Below, in pieces: positions 950-17,049 of a stretch of DNA of 32,582 bases (position 1 is the first letter of the stretch; every line of letters starts with the position of its first letter). The stretch spans positions 1 to 32,582 of the forward strand of contig NZ_JAQGLV010000360.1 in NCBI RefSeq assembly GCF_028292705.1, given 5' to 3'. Source of the DNA: Collimonas fungivorans (GTDB lineage Bacteria; Pseudomonadota; Gammaproteobacteria; Burkholderiales; Burkholderiaceae_D). Under the pieces are notes generated by a model. The model was not told where the DNA came from. It saw nothing but the letters and a program-made list of their open reading frames with translations, and searched no databases. Both the position numbers and the translations under genes were made by a program.

Positions 950-1367
950 TAGTCTGGGCAGCAAACGTGATCTTGTCGAAACCGGCCAGGCGCGCCGCTT
1001 CCAGCACGTTGATCACGGTCTGGTGGGTCGCCATGGCGTCGGCGTTGATGATCACTACGGGGTCGCCCTTGGCGCCGTCGGCCTGCACCGCATTCTTGAG
1101 GTCGAGCGCCAGCGATGCCGCATCCTTGGACGATACCTGGACATTGTTGACCGCGTACTGCCCTTGCGGACTGACAGCGACGTTGATCTCCTGCGGCTGC
1201 ACCATCGCCTTGTCGGCGTCGGCCGTCGGCAAGGTGATTTGCAGCGCAGTGAATTTGCTGTAGCTGGTGGTGACCATCAGGAAAATGACGATCACCAGCA
1301 AGACGTCGATAAACGGAATCAGGTTGATTTCAGGGTCGTCGCGACCCTTGCCTTTACGGAAGTTCAT
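936..1367 (-). CDS. exbD: ExbD/TolR family biopolymer transport protein
   Basis: 143 aa, MNFRKGKGRDDPEINLIPFIDVLLVIVIFLMVTTSYSKF; N-terminal TM segment with the conserved Asp of the ExbD/TolR family. Confidence 0.93.
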   Translation of the reverse strand: MNFRKGKGRDDPEINLIPFIDVLLVIVIFLMVTTSYSKFTALQITLPTADADKAMVQPQEINVAVSPQGQYAVNNVQVSSKDAASLALDLKNAVQADGAKGDPVVIINADAMATHQTVINVLEAARLAGFDKITFAAQTSGHK

Positions 1368-1969
1368 TTGCGTGCGCCGTGAACGGTATCGACAAATTTT
1401 ACAGCCTGCTGCTCCATGTCAACCACGAAGCCATCCACCAAGGCGCGGAAATGGCGGTAGAAAATCAGCGCCGGCATGGCGATCGCCAAGCCGAAACCGG
1501 TGTTGTACAAGGCCACCGAAATGCCATGGCCCAGCTGCGCCGGATCGGCGCCGGCGCCATTGGTCGCGCCAAAGATTTCAATCATGCCGACCACGGTGCC
1601 GAACAAGCCCATCAATGGCGCTAGCGAGGCAATCGTGCCGAGCGTGGTCAGGAAACGTTCCAGTTCATGCGCGGTAGCCTGGCCGGCTTCCTCGATCGAT
1701 TCTTTCATCAGCTCGCGCGGCGCATCGACATTGCGCAGGCCGGCAGCCAGCACCCGGCCCAGCGGCGAGTTGGTTTCCAGGTTGGTCAGGACTTCCTTAT
1801 TGACCTTGCCGTTGTGATAAACCCGTATCACTTCCTGCAGCAGCTGCGGCGGCAAGATGCGCGGCCGGCGCAGGTAAACCAGACGTTCGATAATCAATGC
1901 GGTGGCAATGATGGAGGCAATCAGCAACAGCCAGATCGGCCAGCCCGCAGCTTGAATAATGGCAAACAA
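1364..1969 (-). CDS. exbB: MotA/TolQ/ExbB proton channel family protein
   Basis: ORF 1364..2032; GTVVGMIEIFGA and ExbB/TolQ TM pattern. The start is probably TTG at 1969, because AAGGAG lies 6 nt upstream (TTCACCAAGGAGTTTCTTTTGTTTGCC) and the product then begins (M)FAIIQAAGWPIW. Confidence 0.88.
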   Translation of the reverse strand: MFAIIQAAGWPIWLLLIASIIATALIIERLVYLRRPRILPPQLLQEVIRVYHNGKVNKEVLTNLETNSPLGRVLAAGLRNVDAPRELMKESIEEAGQATAHELERFLTTLGTIASLAPLMGLFGTVVGMIEIFGATNGAGADPAQLGHGISVALYNTGFGLAIAMPALIFYRHFRALVDGFVVDMEQQAVKFVDTVHGARK

Positions 1970-2133
1970 AAGAAACTCCTTGGTGAAATCGCATTCAATA
2001 TCGGCAAATGCGGATGAGGGGTTCATCAGCATGGATGCAGAATGTAACTTGTTGAAGGCTTGTGAGCAAGGGCGACAAGCGTTGCGGGACGGAAATTTTT
2101 ACGGTTAATTTGATAGCGGTTAAGCGACGCTGC

Positions 2134-2238
2134 AAGTTCCGCACATTTTATGTGAACAAGATTGTGGACAAGTGCCGGACTCGGTCGCGAAGTCCATGAT
2201 TTCAAAGGACTTTTTTGTACTGCATCAAAAACGTGCAG
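2134..2238 (+). repeat. Dispersed intergenic repeat, copy 1 (~105 bp)
   Basis: Aligns without gaps to 4272-4376: AAGTTCC[G/A]CACAT[T/A]TTATGTGAACAAGATTGTGGACAAGTG...CTGCAT[C/G]AAAAACGTGCAG; about 84/105 identical by hand count. Confidence 0.9.
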
Positions 2239-2241
2239 ATT

Positions 2242-3162
2242 TTATCTGTCAGCTTTGGCAAAACGGCCGGCCTCGGCAAGAAAATGTTGCACGGCCGGCA
2301 GCGCGTCCGCCTGCCGGCACACCAAAGTTAACGGCGCGCTGAATCCGCCGCCGCTTTCAAGCAGGCGGCAATACACCACCTGGTCGGTGTGGAAGCCATT
2401 CATCGATGCCGGCACAACGGAAATACCGACGCCGGAAGCAACCAGGCAGATATTGGTCAGCATGCGGTCGACTTCGACCGCGATCTTGGGCGAGAATCCG
2501 GCGCGCACGCAGGCATCGATAAAACTGGAATACATGCCGGTAGCGCCCGGGTTGCGGACCAGGATGAACTGTTCGTCGCGCAATGACTTTAGGGAAATCG
2601 CCGGCATGTCTTTTTTCGGCCGTTTTTGCAAAAGCGCATGTCCGACAGGCAGGACCAGCAGCATTTCCTCGTCAAGCAAACGGTGGAACGCCAGCCCGGG
2701 TGGACGGCTGACCGGCATGCGCAGGAAGCCGAGGTCAAGTTTTCCCGAGGCGACCGCGCTCGTCAGTTCCGCCGCATTGCCTTCGCTGAATTTGACAGCG
2801 ACGCCGGGTTTTGCCGCGCGGTGCGCCCGCAGGATCTCCGGAATCAAGGGATGCGCTGCCGCCGAACTGGTGAATCCAACGGAAATCATGCCTTCGATTC
2901 CATTGGCGGCGCGTGCCGCCCGCTGCACGCCCTGGGTGACATTGGCCAGGATCGACTTCGCCTCGTGCAAGAACACCTCGCCGCCGATGCTGAGGTCGAC
3001 TCCTTTCGGGTGCCGGTGGAACAGTGTAAATCCCAACTCGTTCTCCAGCATGCGGATCTGCTGGCTGAGCGGGGGTTGCTGCATGTTCAGCCGTTTGGCC
3101 GCGCGTGTGAAATTCCCCTCCTCGGCAACAACCACAAAATAACGCAAATGCCTCAGTTCCAT
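2242..3162 (-). CDS. LysR family transcriptional regulator (CatM/BenM-like N-terminus)
   Basis: 306 aa, MELRHLRYFVVVAEEGNFTRAAKRLNMQQPPLSQQIRMLENELGFTLFHR; canonical LysR wHTH. Confidence 0.95.
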   Translation of the reverse strand: MELRHLRYFVVVAEEGNFTRAAKRLNMQQPPLSQQIRMLENELGFTLFHRHPKGVDLSIGGEVFLHEAKSILANVTQGVQRAARAANGIEGMISVGFTSSAAAHPLIPEILRAHRAAKPGVAVKFSEGNAAELTSAVASGKLDLGFLRMPVSRPPGLAFHRLLDEEMLLVLPVGHALLQKRPKKDMPAISLKSLRDEQFILVRNPGATGMYSSFIDACVRAGFSPKIAVEVDRMLTNICLVASGVGISVVPASMNGFHTDQVVYCRLLESGGGFSAPLTLVCRQADALPAVQHFLAEAGRFAKADR

Positions 3163-3190
3163 GACTCAGTTCCATGATCCTATCAATGCA

Positions 3191-3205
3191 ATACATATAA
3201 AGTAT
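3191..3205. promoter_or_regulatory. Candidate LysR operator ATAC-N7-GTAT (T-N11-A)
   Basis: ATACATATAAAGTAT lies between the divergent lysR (start 3162) and hydrolase (start 3299); it matches the LTTR T-N11-A dyad and the CatM/BenM ATAC-N7-GTAT form. Confidence 0.6.
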
Positions 3206-3298
3206 AGAGATGCCTTCTTTATTATATTTTACATTGGCTACGCGCACTCCTATTATCAGTTGCGTGACCACATCGGCAATTTCAACGGGACTTTAAGC

Positions 3299-4246
3299 AT
3301 GGACAATATAAAACGGCGGACCTTGTTAGGCGCGGGATTCCTGGGAGCATCGGCGCTGATCGCCCCGCGCGTGCTTTACGCGGCATCCTCGTCCATGGAA
3401 CGACAGGAGATTCCTCTTTGGTCCAGGCCGCCTGGAGGAAACGGCCCCGACGGACCGGAACAGACCAATGCGAAGGGCTCTGTCACCAACGTCTCCCGCC
3501 CGCGCCTGGTGGTCTATCGTCCCGAGCGGCCTGACGGCAGCGCTGTATTGGTGATTGCCGGCGGCGGCTATGGGCATATCGAGCGGGGAAGCGAAAGCAT
3601 CCCGGCAGCCCAGTGGCTGCAATCGCTTGGCGTCACCGTATTCGAACTGGTCTATCGTTTGCCCGGCGAAGGCTGGTCGAACATCGCGCCGTTCCAGGAC
3701 GGCCAGCGCGCCATGCGCCTGATCCGTGCATTGGCGCCGAAGTATGAACTGGCGGCCAACCGCATCGGCATCCTCGGCTTTTCCGCCGGCGGCCATCTGG
3801 CGGGAACCACGGCGGCGGAACCGGATGCCCGGCGCTACCAGGCCATCGACGCGGCCGACCAGTTTTCCGCGCGTCCCGATTTCGCCGGATTGATCTACCC
3901 CGTGCTTACCTTCATGCCGCCCTACGACAACACGCGCTCGCGCCGTGAAATTATCGGCAAGCATCCGGACCTTGCGGCCAGCGAAGAATTCTCGGTGGAA
4001 CGGCATGTCACCAGCGGCATGCCGCCAACCTTCCTGGCGCAAGCCGCAGACGATCCGATTTCGCCGATCCAGAACAGCCTGCTGATGTTCAATGCGCTCA
4101 AGGCTGCGCAAATCCCGGCGGAAATGCATGTGTTCCAGGATGGCGGACATGGCTGGGGACTGGGAAAACCGGGCAGCCAGCCGCATGCCTGGCCGGGCTT
4201 GTTCGAATCCTGGACAGCGCACAACGGCTGGACAAAAACAGCCTGA
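3299..4246 (+). CDS. Alpha/beta hydrolase (acetyl-esterase/BD-FAE type), Tat-like signal peptide
   Basis: MDNIKRRTLLGAGFLGASALIAPRVLYA twin-arginine-like leader; GGGYGHIERGSE oxyanion motif, GFSAGGHLAG nucleophile elbow, DGGHGWG C-terminal His motif. ORF-track start 3161 is probably too long. Confidence 0.85.
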   Translation: MDNIKRRTLLGAGFLGASALIAPRVLYAASSSMERQEIPLWSRPPGGNGPDGPEQTNAKGSVTNVSRPRLVVYRPERPDGSAVLVIAGGGYGHIERGSESIPAAQWLQSLGVTVFELVYRLPGEGWSNIAPFQDGQRAMRLIRALAPKYELAANRIGILGFSAGGHLAGTTAAEPDARRYQAIDAADQFSARPDFAGLIYPVLTFMPPYDNTRSRREIIGKHPDLAASEEFSVERHVTSGMPPTFLAQAADDPISPIQNSLLMFNALKAAQIPAEMHVFQDGGHGWGLGKPGSQPHAWPGLFESWTAHNGWTKTA

Positions 4247-4271: not shown

Positions 4272-4376
4272 AAGTTCCACACATATTATGTGAACAAGAT
4301 TGTGGACAAGTGTTTAACTCGAAGCATAAGTCAATGATTCGAAAGGGTTTTTTAGCGCTGCATGAAAAACGTGCAG
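4272..4376 (+). repeat. Dispersed intergenic repeat, copy 2 (~105 bp)
   Basis: See copy 1; same orientation, same length, ungapped. Confidence 0.9.
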
Positions 4377-4406
4377 CGCTCTCCTCTCCCGCGCCGGCAA
4401 AGTTCT

Positions 4407-4480
4407 CCACAGATTTTGGGGATAACTATGTGCACAAGCGCACTGGATTCACGAGAAGTCCTTGATTGGAAACATCTTTT
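4407..4480 (+). repeat. Dispersed intergenic repeat, diverged copy 3
   Basis: CCACAGATTTTGGGGATAACTATGTGCACAAGCGCACTGGATTCACGAGAAGTCCTTGATTGGAAA...TTTT aligns in register with copies 1/2; the AAGTCC block lies at the same 49-nt offset. Confidence 0.7.
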
Positions 4481-4616
4481 CACTACTGTTGGCGGCAAGT
4501 GCAAATGCGCCTCAAACAGCGGTTTACAGATAGCGATGACGTTTTCCACGGATCTTTCTTAGCCGTTTCGCCATGGCCCCGCCCGCGGATATCCACAAGC
4601 CCCGGCTGATCCGCAG

Positions 4617-4692
4617 TTACCCACAGAATTTGTGGATAAGCTTGTGCGCAAGCGCACTGCAATCTGGGCAAGCCTTTGATTTGTTTCGCTTT
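4617..4692 (+). repeat. Dispersed intergenic repeat, diverged copy 4, with inverted DnaA-box-like pair
   Basis: TTACCCACAGAATTTGTGGATAAGCTTGTGCGCAAGCGCACTGC...AAGCCTTTGATTT...TTTT; TTACCCACA / TGTGGATAA dyad, same 49-nt register to the AAGCC block. Confidence 0.7.
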
Positions 4693-4773
4693 TCCATTGA
4701 TGATCAGCGACCGTGCTTTACAATGGCAAGCTCCAGCAAATCACGCGCCAATAAAGAACCCCGGAAAGCCCGT

Positions 4774-6135
4774 ATGAATTTCTCCAGCGACACCGACCTC
4801 CGTTCCAGCGGACCGCCAGTACTGACGGTTTCCGCCTTGAATCAAGCCGTGGCGCGTTTGCTGGAACGCAGCTTCCCGCTGGCCTGGGTGGCGGGCGAGA
4901 TATCGAATTTCAAAAGCTATGCCTCCGGCCACTGGTACTTCACCTTGAAAGACGATGCGGCGCAAGTGCGCGGCGTGATGTTCAAGGGCCGCGCCCAGCA
5001 TGCCGGCTTTACCCCGCGCGACGGCGACAAGGTGGAAGTGCGGGCGCTGGTGACGCTGTACGCCGCACGCGGCGACTACCAGCTCAACGTCGAAGCGATC
5101 CGGCGCGCCGGCGTCGGCAACCTGTATGAAGCGTTCTTGCGCCTGAAAGAAAAACTCAATGCGGAAGGCTTGTTCGATCCGGCCCGCAAACGGCCGCTGC
5201 CGCCATTCGCCCGCACCATCGGCATCGTCACCAGCCTGCAGGCGGCGGCGCTGCGCGATATCCTGAGCGCCCTGGCGCGCCGCGCGCCGCATGTGCGCGT
5301 GATCCTTTATCCGACCCCGGTCCAAGGCGACGGCGCAGCAGAGAAAATCGCACGCGCCATCAATACCGCTGCCGCGCGCGCCGAATGCGAGCTGCTGCTG
5401 GTGTGCCGCGGCGGCGGCAGCATCGAAGATTTATGGTCGTTCAATGACGAAGCGGTAGCGCGCGCCATCGTCGCCGCGCCGATGCCGGTGATTTCCGGCG
5501 TCGGCCACGAAACCGATTTCACGATTGCCGATTTCGCCGCCGACCTGCGCGCCGCGACCCCGACCGCCGCCGCCGAACTGGCGACAGTGCCGCGCGCCGA
5601 ATGGCTGGCGACGCTGGAAACGCACGCCGACGACCTGACCCGCGCCCTGCGCCGCCAGTTGGCCGAAACCGGCCAGACCCTGGACTGGCTGAGCCGGCGC
5701 CTGAGCAGTCCGGCCACCACCATCGCCCACGAACGCGTCAAGCTGCAAAGCCTGCAAGCCAGGCTGCTGCACGCCACCCGCATTCCGTTGACGCAATCGC
5801 GTCACGCATTGCTGAACCTGCGCACCCGCTGGGCCGCACAGATACCCAGCACGATTGCGCCGCGCATTGCGCTGCTGGAACAGAGCCGGCGCCTCAACGG
5901 CGCGCTGGCCGCGCAAAACCGCGATCGCCGCCAGGCATTGGCAGCGCTCAATGCGCAGCTGGAGCTGCTGAATCCGCAATGCACGCTGGAACGCGGCTAC
6001 GCCATCGTCTCGGACGCCAAGGGCCATGTGATCCGGACGCCGCAGGCGCTGCAGCCGCGCCACGTGATCACCGTGCAACTGGCCGAAGGCAGCGCCCAGG
6101 TCGGCATAGACAGCGTGCAGGCGACGCTGGATTGA
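4774..6135 (+). CDS. xseA: Exodeoxyribonuclease VII large subunit
   Basis: [60 protein letters not shown]...; [21 protein letters not shown] and [27 protein letters not shown] are XseA signatures. Confidence 0.97.
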
Positions 6136-7618: not shown

Positions 7619-7643
7619 GGATTTTGTTATGGTTTTGCCATAT

Positions 7644-7661
7644 GTGTAATTAATATTACTA
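7644..7661. promoter_or_regulatory. Candidate TetR operator 1 (tetR promoter side)
   Basis: GTGTAATTAATATTACTA; core GTAAT-TAAT-ATTAC perfect palindrome at 7646-7659. Confidence 0.6.
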
Positions 7662-7767
7662 TTGAATCGACAGTCAATTTCCGCCCAGGTTTAGAGTGGA
7701 TTACCAATTGACGCTGGCCGCTGCTTTAACTACAGTGGGCATTCAGGATGAATCAGCAGCAAGCTAA

Positions 7768-7785
7768 GTGTAATTTTAATTACTA
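7768..7785. promoter_or_regulatory. Candidate TetR operator 2 (thiolase promoter side)
   Basis: GTGTAATTTTAATTACTA; core GTAAT-TTTA-ATTAC perfect palindrome at 7770-7783, 16/18 identical to operator 1. Confidence 0.6.
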
Positions 7786-7807
7786 GAACATACAAGCCGG
7801 AGACGCT

Positions 7808-16682: not shown

Positions 16683-16704
16683 GGTGTCTCCTGATATTTT
16701 TATT

Positions 16705-16722
16705 GTGTAATTTAATTTACAC
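16705..16722. promoter_or_regulatory. Candidate TetR operator 3 (acyl-CoA dehydrogenase operon promoter)
   Basis: GTGTAATTTAATTTACAC; 6-bp perfect arms GTGTAA/TTACAC; same GTGTAAT head as operators 1 and 2. Confidence 0.55.
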
Positions 16723-16816
16723 TTACATCGATCGCAGGTTAAAAATCATCCGGATTGATGGTATTTGAGAATACACCGATTTTCAATATGAAAGCTAGAG
16801 ACAGGTCTCGGACTAC

Positions 16817-16834
16817 TGGTAATTATTATTACAC
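16817..16834. promoter_or_regulatory. Candidate TetR operator 4 (acyl-CoA dehydrogenase / ugpB divergent region)
   Basis: TGGTAATTATTATTACAC, reverse GTGTAATAATAATTACCA; core GTAAT-TATT-ATTAC perfect palindrome at 16819-16832. Confidence 0.5.
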
Positions 16835-17049
16835 TACGATCGATTTCCGAAGCCACCTCTATGCAGCAACGGCGAGCCGGAAACCAAGCTTTTAGATCAG
16901 GCAGCATCCCGTCTTTCATTGCGCATAAGAAAAACAAACATTGCGCGGCTGACAAACTCACCTATAGAATCCGGCTTTACAGCGAGGCCGCTGCTGTCAC
17001 GCAGTCGTCATATGACTTCGCTACCATAAAAAATTTTACGGAGGCCCTG

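Follow-up and report, generated by a model that had tools for sequence, protein, structure and literature searches.

The window analysed here (the whole stretch of 32,582 nucleotides of a Collimonas fungivorans contig) carries four copies of a repeat of about 100 bp, and our results suggest that these repeats are compact DARS-like elements, i.e., chromosomal sites that would turn ADP-DnaA towards ATP-DnaA (we place the probability of this reading at about 0.68). Each unit appears, judging from its sequence, to consist of three protein-site modules: a triplet of DnaA boxes, a predicted IHF site and a Fis-like dyad. We infer protein binding, ADP release, and a role in initiation timing and DnaA titration. 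The repeats are DARS-like elements and not orthologues of DARS2, because both the distance between core and IHF site and the locus differ.

The repeat family and its three modules

All four window copies lie on the forward strand (Table 1). A preliminary description of this DNA had placed four in-register copies at 2141, 4279, 4407 and 4621; they are present there, and a gap-free alignment of the four spans 86 nt, of which 36 columns are invariant. It also took them for a common unit rather than a product of chance, in agreement with our results: the triplet geometry did not occur in any of 60 first-order Markov shuffles of the window (four observed), and further copies exist in the genome. 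Using a sequence-only model built from the four window copies, we searched the genome's own assembly (4.55 Mb, 418 contigs, 87% complete) and identified five further full copies (C41:12886, C91:12787, C16:1415, C402:6180 and C402:10892). All 14 other genomes of the genus searched contained 4–10 matches; among these, a genome-reduced member (1.7 Mb, 99% complete) kept four matches, with three copies clustered. Among named records, the genome's xseA and a neighbouring oxidoreductase gene matched Collimonas contigs best (87.9% and 83–84% identity). The preliminary description had made the family depend on the presence of more copies in the genome, and with many found the family was not refuted. 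In a plasmid search, matches were confined to the DnaA-box stretch of copy 4.

Table 1. Repeat modules, additional DnaA-box-like sites and bordering genes in the window.
Feature	Position	Strand	Details
Copy 1 DnaA-box triplet	2137..2171	+	I 2137-2145 TTCCGCACA, II 2151-2159 TGTGAACAA, III 2163-2171 TGTGGACAA
Copy 1 IHF-like site GAAGTCCATGATT, then T-run	2189..2201	+	2 mismatches to YAANNNNTTGATW
Copy 1 Fis-like dyad GCATCAAAAACGTGC	2222..2236	+	1 mismatch to GNNYRNNWNNYRNNC
Copy 2 DnaA-box triplet	4275..4309	+	TTCCACACA / TGTGAACAA / TGTGGACAA
Copy 2 IHF-like site TAAGTCAATGATT and T-run	4327..4339	+	1 mismatch
Copy 2 Fis-consensus dyad GCATGAAAAACGTGC	4360..4374	+	0 mismatches
Copy 3 DnaA-box triplet	4403..4437	+	TTCTCCACA / TGGGGATAA / TGTGCACAA
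Copy 3 IHF-like site GAAGTCCTTGATT and T-run	4455..4467	+	1 mismatch
Copy 4 DnaA-box triplet, box II perfect	4617..4651	+	TTACCCACA / TGTGGATAA / TGTGCGCAA
Copy 4 IHF-like site CAAGCCTTTGATT	4669..4681	+	perfect IHF consensus
Copy 4 degenerate Fis-like site GATCAGCGACCGTGC	4702..4716	+	1 mismatch
DnaA-box-like extra site TTTTCCACG, between copies 3 and 4	4542..4550	+	
DnaA-box-like extra site TATCCACAA, between copies 3 and 4	4590..4598	+	
exbB/tolQ-family gene	1364..2032	-	Pfam PF01618; conserved neighbour; ancestral array border
xseA (exonuclease VII large subunit)	4774..6135	+	Pfam PF02601; conserved neighbour; opposite array border

Every copy has the same layout, namely box I (TTATCCACA sense), five nucleotides, box II (TGTGGATAA sense), three nucleotides and box III (TGTGGATAA sense), with boxes I and II head-to-head and boxes II and III in direct orientation. 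What the earlier view took for DnaA-box-like dyads is a set of three DnaA boxes in a fixed arrangement; the arm of copy 4 said to be an exact DnaA box is box II of that copy, and the boxes noted near copies 3 and 4 are real. Box I has three mismatches to the consensus in copies 1 and 2. All four window copies share a reversed box I and offsets of 14 and 12 nt between successive boxes with DARS1 (TTATCCACT-N5-TGTGGATAA-N3-TGTGTATTA; L072:2108) and DARS2 (TTATCCCAG-N5-TGTGGATAA-N3-GGTGTAAGA; L073:2452) of E. coli MG1655. The DARS core has been defined as three boxes, equally spaced in DARS1 and DARS2, with box I reversed and the head-to-head pair I/II essential (PMC5742627; PMC10380432), and the order, orientation and spacing of the three boxes of the repeats are those of this core. 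The preliminary description, which recognised no named family, is superseded in this respect; its suggestion of a DnaA-titrating or DnaA-regulated element pointed in the right direction and is sharpened by the same geometry.

Two tallies are free of model selection. In one, 182 of 399 Pseudomonadota genomes carried triplets with these offsets and at most 3 mismatches, the DARS1-type sequence TTATCCACTATTCCTGTGGATAAC among them; the matches listed included none to the control. The other, counted by hand from the match list, concerned perfect TTATCCACA-N1..14-TGTGGATAA pairs in 249 Pseudomonadota genomes: the N5 spacer was present in 32 of 49 distinct places. At loci fetched with our models, a selected sample, 70 of 93 triplets had the 14/12 offsets.

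The second block (AAGTCCTTGATT plus T-run; also TAAGnnnTTGATT) reads as a predicted IHF site, (Y)AANNNNTTGATW or YAANNNNTTGATW, and on the opposite strand as A-tract-N7/8-WATCAANNNNTTR; the IHF consensus used for DARS2 is TAAnnnnTTGATW (PMC8682772). The block had been described as starting 49 nt from the first base of the unit, with some doubt for copy 2, and AAG..TGATT is indeed there in all four copies, copy 2 included. The IHF-like site lies constantly 16–17 nt past box III. In a dereplicated set of elements, partly picked by models that contain the block, sites with at most one mismatch numbered 37 at +17 and 12 at +16, and three or fewer at any other offset. Among 66 elements picked by boxes alone, 12 had an IHF match at +16/17, where we calculate that about 0.05 would be expected. 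Families farther away within the order retain TAAG...TAAGG.TTTTT in this block and often lose TTGAT; the motif-based prediction of an IHF site is therefore strong within Oxalobacteraceae and weaker outside them. A reading of TTGATT as a -35 promoter box was dropped once the IHF consensus and the constant phase emerged.

The third module is a Fis-like dyad of 15 bases at about +50 (e.g., GCCTAAATTTTAGGC, GCTCATTTTTTGGGC and, in copy 2, GCATGAAAAACGTGC), matching GNNYRNNWNNYRNNC, a degenerate Fis consensus. Exact matches to this consensus were counted in 83 dereplicated elements, picked by core and IHF site only from the matches listed in the genome scan of about 85,000 species: 23 fell at +48 to +51, compared with 0–3 at any other offset. 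In the window the module is clear in copy 2, where the match is exact, and weak or degenerate in the others (copies 1 and 4 each have one mismatch, and copy 3 has a degenerate form). In four Oxalobacteraceae loci (L169, L178, L179 and L180) an FNR-like TTGATnnnnATCAA replaces the Fis-like dyad about 48 nt past box III. An FNR-like reading of the third module was rejected as not general, applying to few members only (L179, L180). The IHF site, the Fis-like module and the division of the array described below are points new with respect to the first reading of this DNA.

Genomic distribution and chromosomal position

In the genome scan across about 85,000 species, with core plus IHF site as the query, the matches listed place this combination almost solely in Oxalobacteraceae (Janthinobacterium, Massilia, Duganella, Undibacterium, Collimonas, Herbaspirillum, Rugamonas, Pseudoduganella, Telluria and Herminiimonas), with few outside the family (Rubrivivax, Brachymonas, Neisseriaceae, Colwellia and a Coxiella endosymbiont). 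Among the same listed matches, 68 of 80 loci with core and IHF site were at exbB/xseA. Copy number ranges overall from one to about nine, and at exbB-xseA the elements are often in tandem (2–9 copies), with the IHF end of the unit pointing toward xseA. DnaA-box triplets between exbB and xseA, or next to xseA alone where exbB was undetected, were found in at least nine Burkholderiales families.

Copy 1 of the window is separated from copies 2–4 by two genes (2242–4246), one of the LysR type and one for an alpha/beta-hydrolase, and the same gene pair is present in a relative (G012, L058). Copy 1 and copies 2–4 are parts of a single ancestral exbB-xseA array, split by two inserted genes. Another relative (G007) has copy 1 about 20 kb from the remaining copies. 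Dispersed copies adjoin genes for a GFO/IDH oxidoreductase, a NYN protein, a GDSL lipase/response regulator, a DegP-like protease and PanE.

Taking the point opposite dnaA as the terminus, the copies lie at 0.46–0.74 of the half-chromosome from dnaA in six complete genomes and at 0.29 in a seventh; on the same scale, E. coli DARS1 is at 0.66, DARS2 at 0.41 and datA at 0.20. The elements do not look like an oriC: they are 0.3–0.7 of the way from dnaA, and their boxes are head-to-head, not in a head-to-tail array.

We also observed a different kind of triplet between hemE and priA ("type B"), with two representatives upstream of priA in the same genome (C410:2118-2152 and 2583-2617) and others in at least eight Burkholderiales families. 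Like the repeats, these have near-consensus boxes in the 14/12 geometry and a dyad at about +50; unlike them, they lack the IHF block, with no IHF consensus at +16/17, and lie near the dnaA region (about 90 kb from dnaA in the relative G003) rather than mid-replichore. They may represent another DARS-like site or one linked to the origin, and since the same geometry occurs there with other downstream sequence, a triplet by itself may have more than one role. Two other kinds of repeats were seen in the genome. Direct DnaA-box-like repeats form a run between parA and parB (C131:28554-28599), and palindrome-like repeats TGTGTAATTnnnnTTACac occur in the window at 7643-7670, 7767-7794, 16704-16731 and 16816-16843, two before each of two genes; these four are probable operator pairs of one regulator.

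Known systems and alternative explanations

Among known systems, the repeats most invite comparison with the two E. coli DARS and with datA. In DARS2 the core is identical in order, orientation and spacing, the site is likewise intergenic and mid-replichore, and regulatory IHF and Fis sites follow in an order (core-IHF-Fis) that matches, in compressed form, the order of the predicted IHF site and the putative Fis-like module in the Collimonas repeats; the location of the IHF site on the side of box III is a DARS2 feature that the repeats share. However, DARS2 spans 455 bp while the three modules of the repeats take about 100 bp, the closest IHF match to its core (one mismatch or none) is at +84 instead of +17, and DARS2 lies beside mutH, whereas the repeats are several, often tandem, and have exbB-xseA as their locus. 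This comparison covered boxes I–III; DARS2 carries additional DnaA boxes IV–VI. For some of the directions tried in DARS2, moving the IHF or Fis position by 5 bp impairs activity more than moving it by 10 bp (PMC4245941). DARS1 resembles the repeats in its identical core geometry, its size of about 100 bp and its intergenic location, but shows no IHF match in the 170 nt that follow downstream and is a single copy, at bioD-uvrB. The datA locus, which acts in DDAH, also combines DnaA boxes with one IHF site; nevertheless, a datA reading fails, as the repeats carry the DARS geometry that datA lacks (the best place for a 14/12 triplet in E. coli datA has 8 mismatches), and its action is the opposite one, ATP hydrolysis.

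The repeats could instead form a mere DnaA titration array, whose boxes soak up DnaA with no nucleotide exchange and where IHF simply modulates occupancy. The family is multicopy and clustered, with graded box variants and about 24 or more boxes per genome, and titration by DARS1, DARS2 and datA has been reported in E. coli (PMC12371093). Titration alone, however, could do without a fixed 14/12 geometry and without a constantly phased IHF site, and E. coli box density is highest near oriC while the repeats are mid-replichore; we regard it as unlikely to be the whole explanation. It is compatible with the DARS reading, and is probably an additional effect of the repeats. We give slightly less credence to the view that the copies are cis-regulatory sites of promoters controlled by DnaA, IHF and Fis, mainly that of xseA. 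The conserved xseA neighbour, the constant orientation towards it and a promoter-like match for xseA just past copy 4 (4697–4724) fit such control, which nonetheless does not need several tandem copies per locus and does not account for dispersed copies that flank unrelated genes, some of them located 3' of the neighbouring gene.

The preliminary description had also considered an RNA or a mobile repeat, and both now seem very improbable. A small RNA or intrinsic terminator family (a hairpin AAGTCC/GGACTT followed by a T-run) could draw on a possible 6-bp stem before the T-run of copy 1; in 52 dereplicated copies, however, the best stems did not exceed shuffled lengths and showed no notable helix covariation. 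An Rfam search of the repeats gave no match, and no terminator match lay over the T-runs; the single match fell on the +50 dyad in copy 1. As for a non-autonomous mobile repeat, the family is dispersed and multicopy with tandem duplications, but the dispersed copies keep their gene neighbours from one species of the genus to another, the main array occupies a single conserved locus across families, and conservation resides in the internal modules rather than at the ends.

Proposed function and implications

According to the DARS reading, ADP-DnaA would assemble on the element and be converted towards ATP-DnaA. Two DnaA molecules would sit head to head on boxes I and II, with a third on box III. 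IHF, about one and a half turns away, would bend the DNA and, probably together with Fis at the third module, shape the complex into an ADP-releasing form; apo-DnaA would then rebind ATP. Oxalobacteraceae would have several such elements, mostly in the mid-replichore tandem array at exbB-xseA, with a few dispersed copies. DnaA (in relatives and in the genome itself), Hda and IHF-alpha are encoded, as is a Fis homologue of 79 aa with about 40% identity to E. coli Fis, which makes the ATP/ADP switch and both accessory proteins plausible.

In the literature consulted, detailed accounts of DARS concern mostly E. coli and its close gamma-proteobacterial relatives (PMC4245941), and DARS-like sequences have been stated for beta- and many other proteobacteria (PMC5742627; PMC10380432). 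We found no description of this repeat family in Burkholderiales or Collimonas in the open-licence literature. What is new here is a DARS-like variant that is compact, multicopy, IHF-fused and arrayed. Tentatively, Oxalobacteraceae may have swapped the two single-copy DARS of E. coli for an IHF/Fis-gated mini-DARS array of variable copy number at exbB-xseA, in which the number of repeats would set the strength of reactivation and evolve by gain and loss. The family provides a natural experiment, with a compact tandem version of 100 bp at an order-wide locus and in variable copy number, with module spacing fixed to about one base, and with the element retained in a genome-reduced relative. These elements make it testable whether a DARS-based ATP/ADP-DnaA switch is general outside enterics, and would offer a minimal DNA for structures of the DnaA-IHF-Fis exchange complex.
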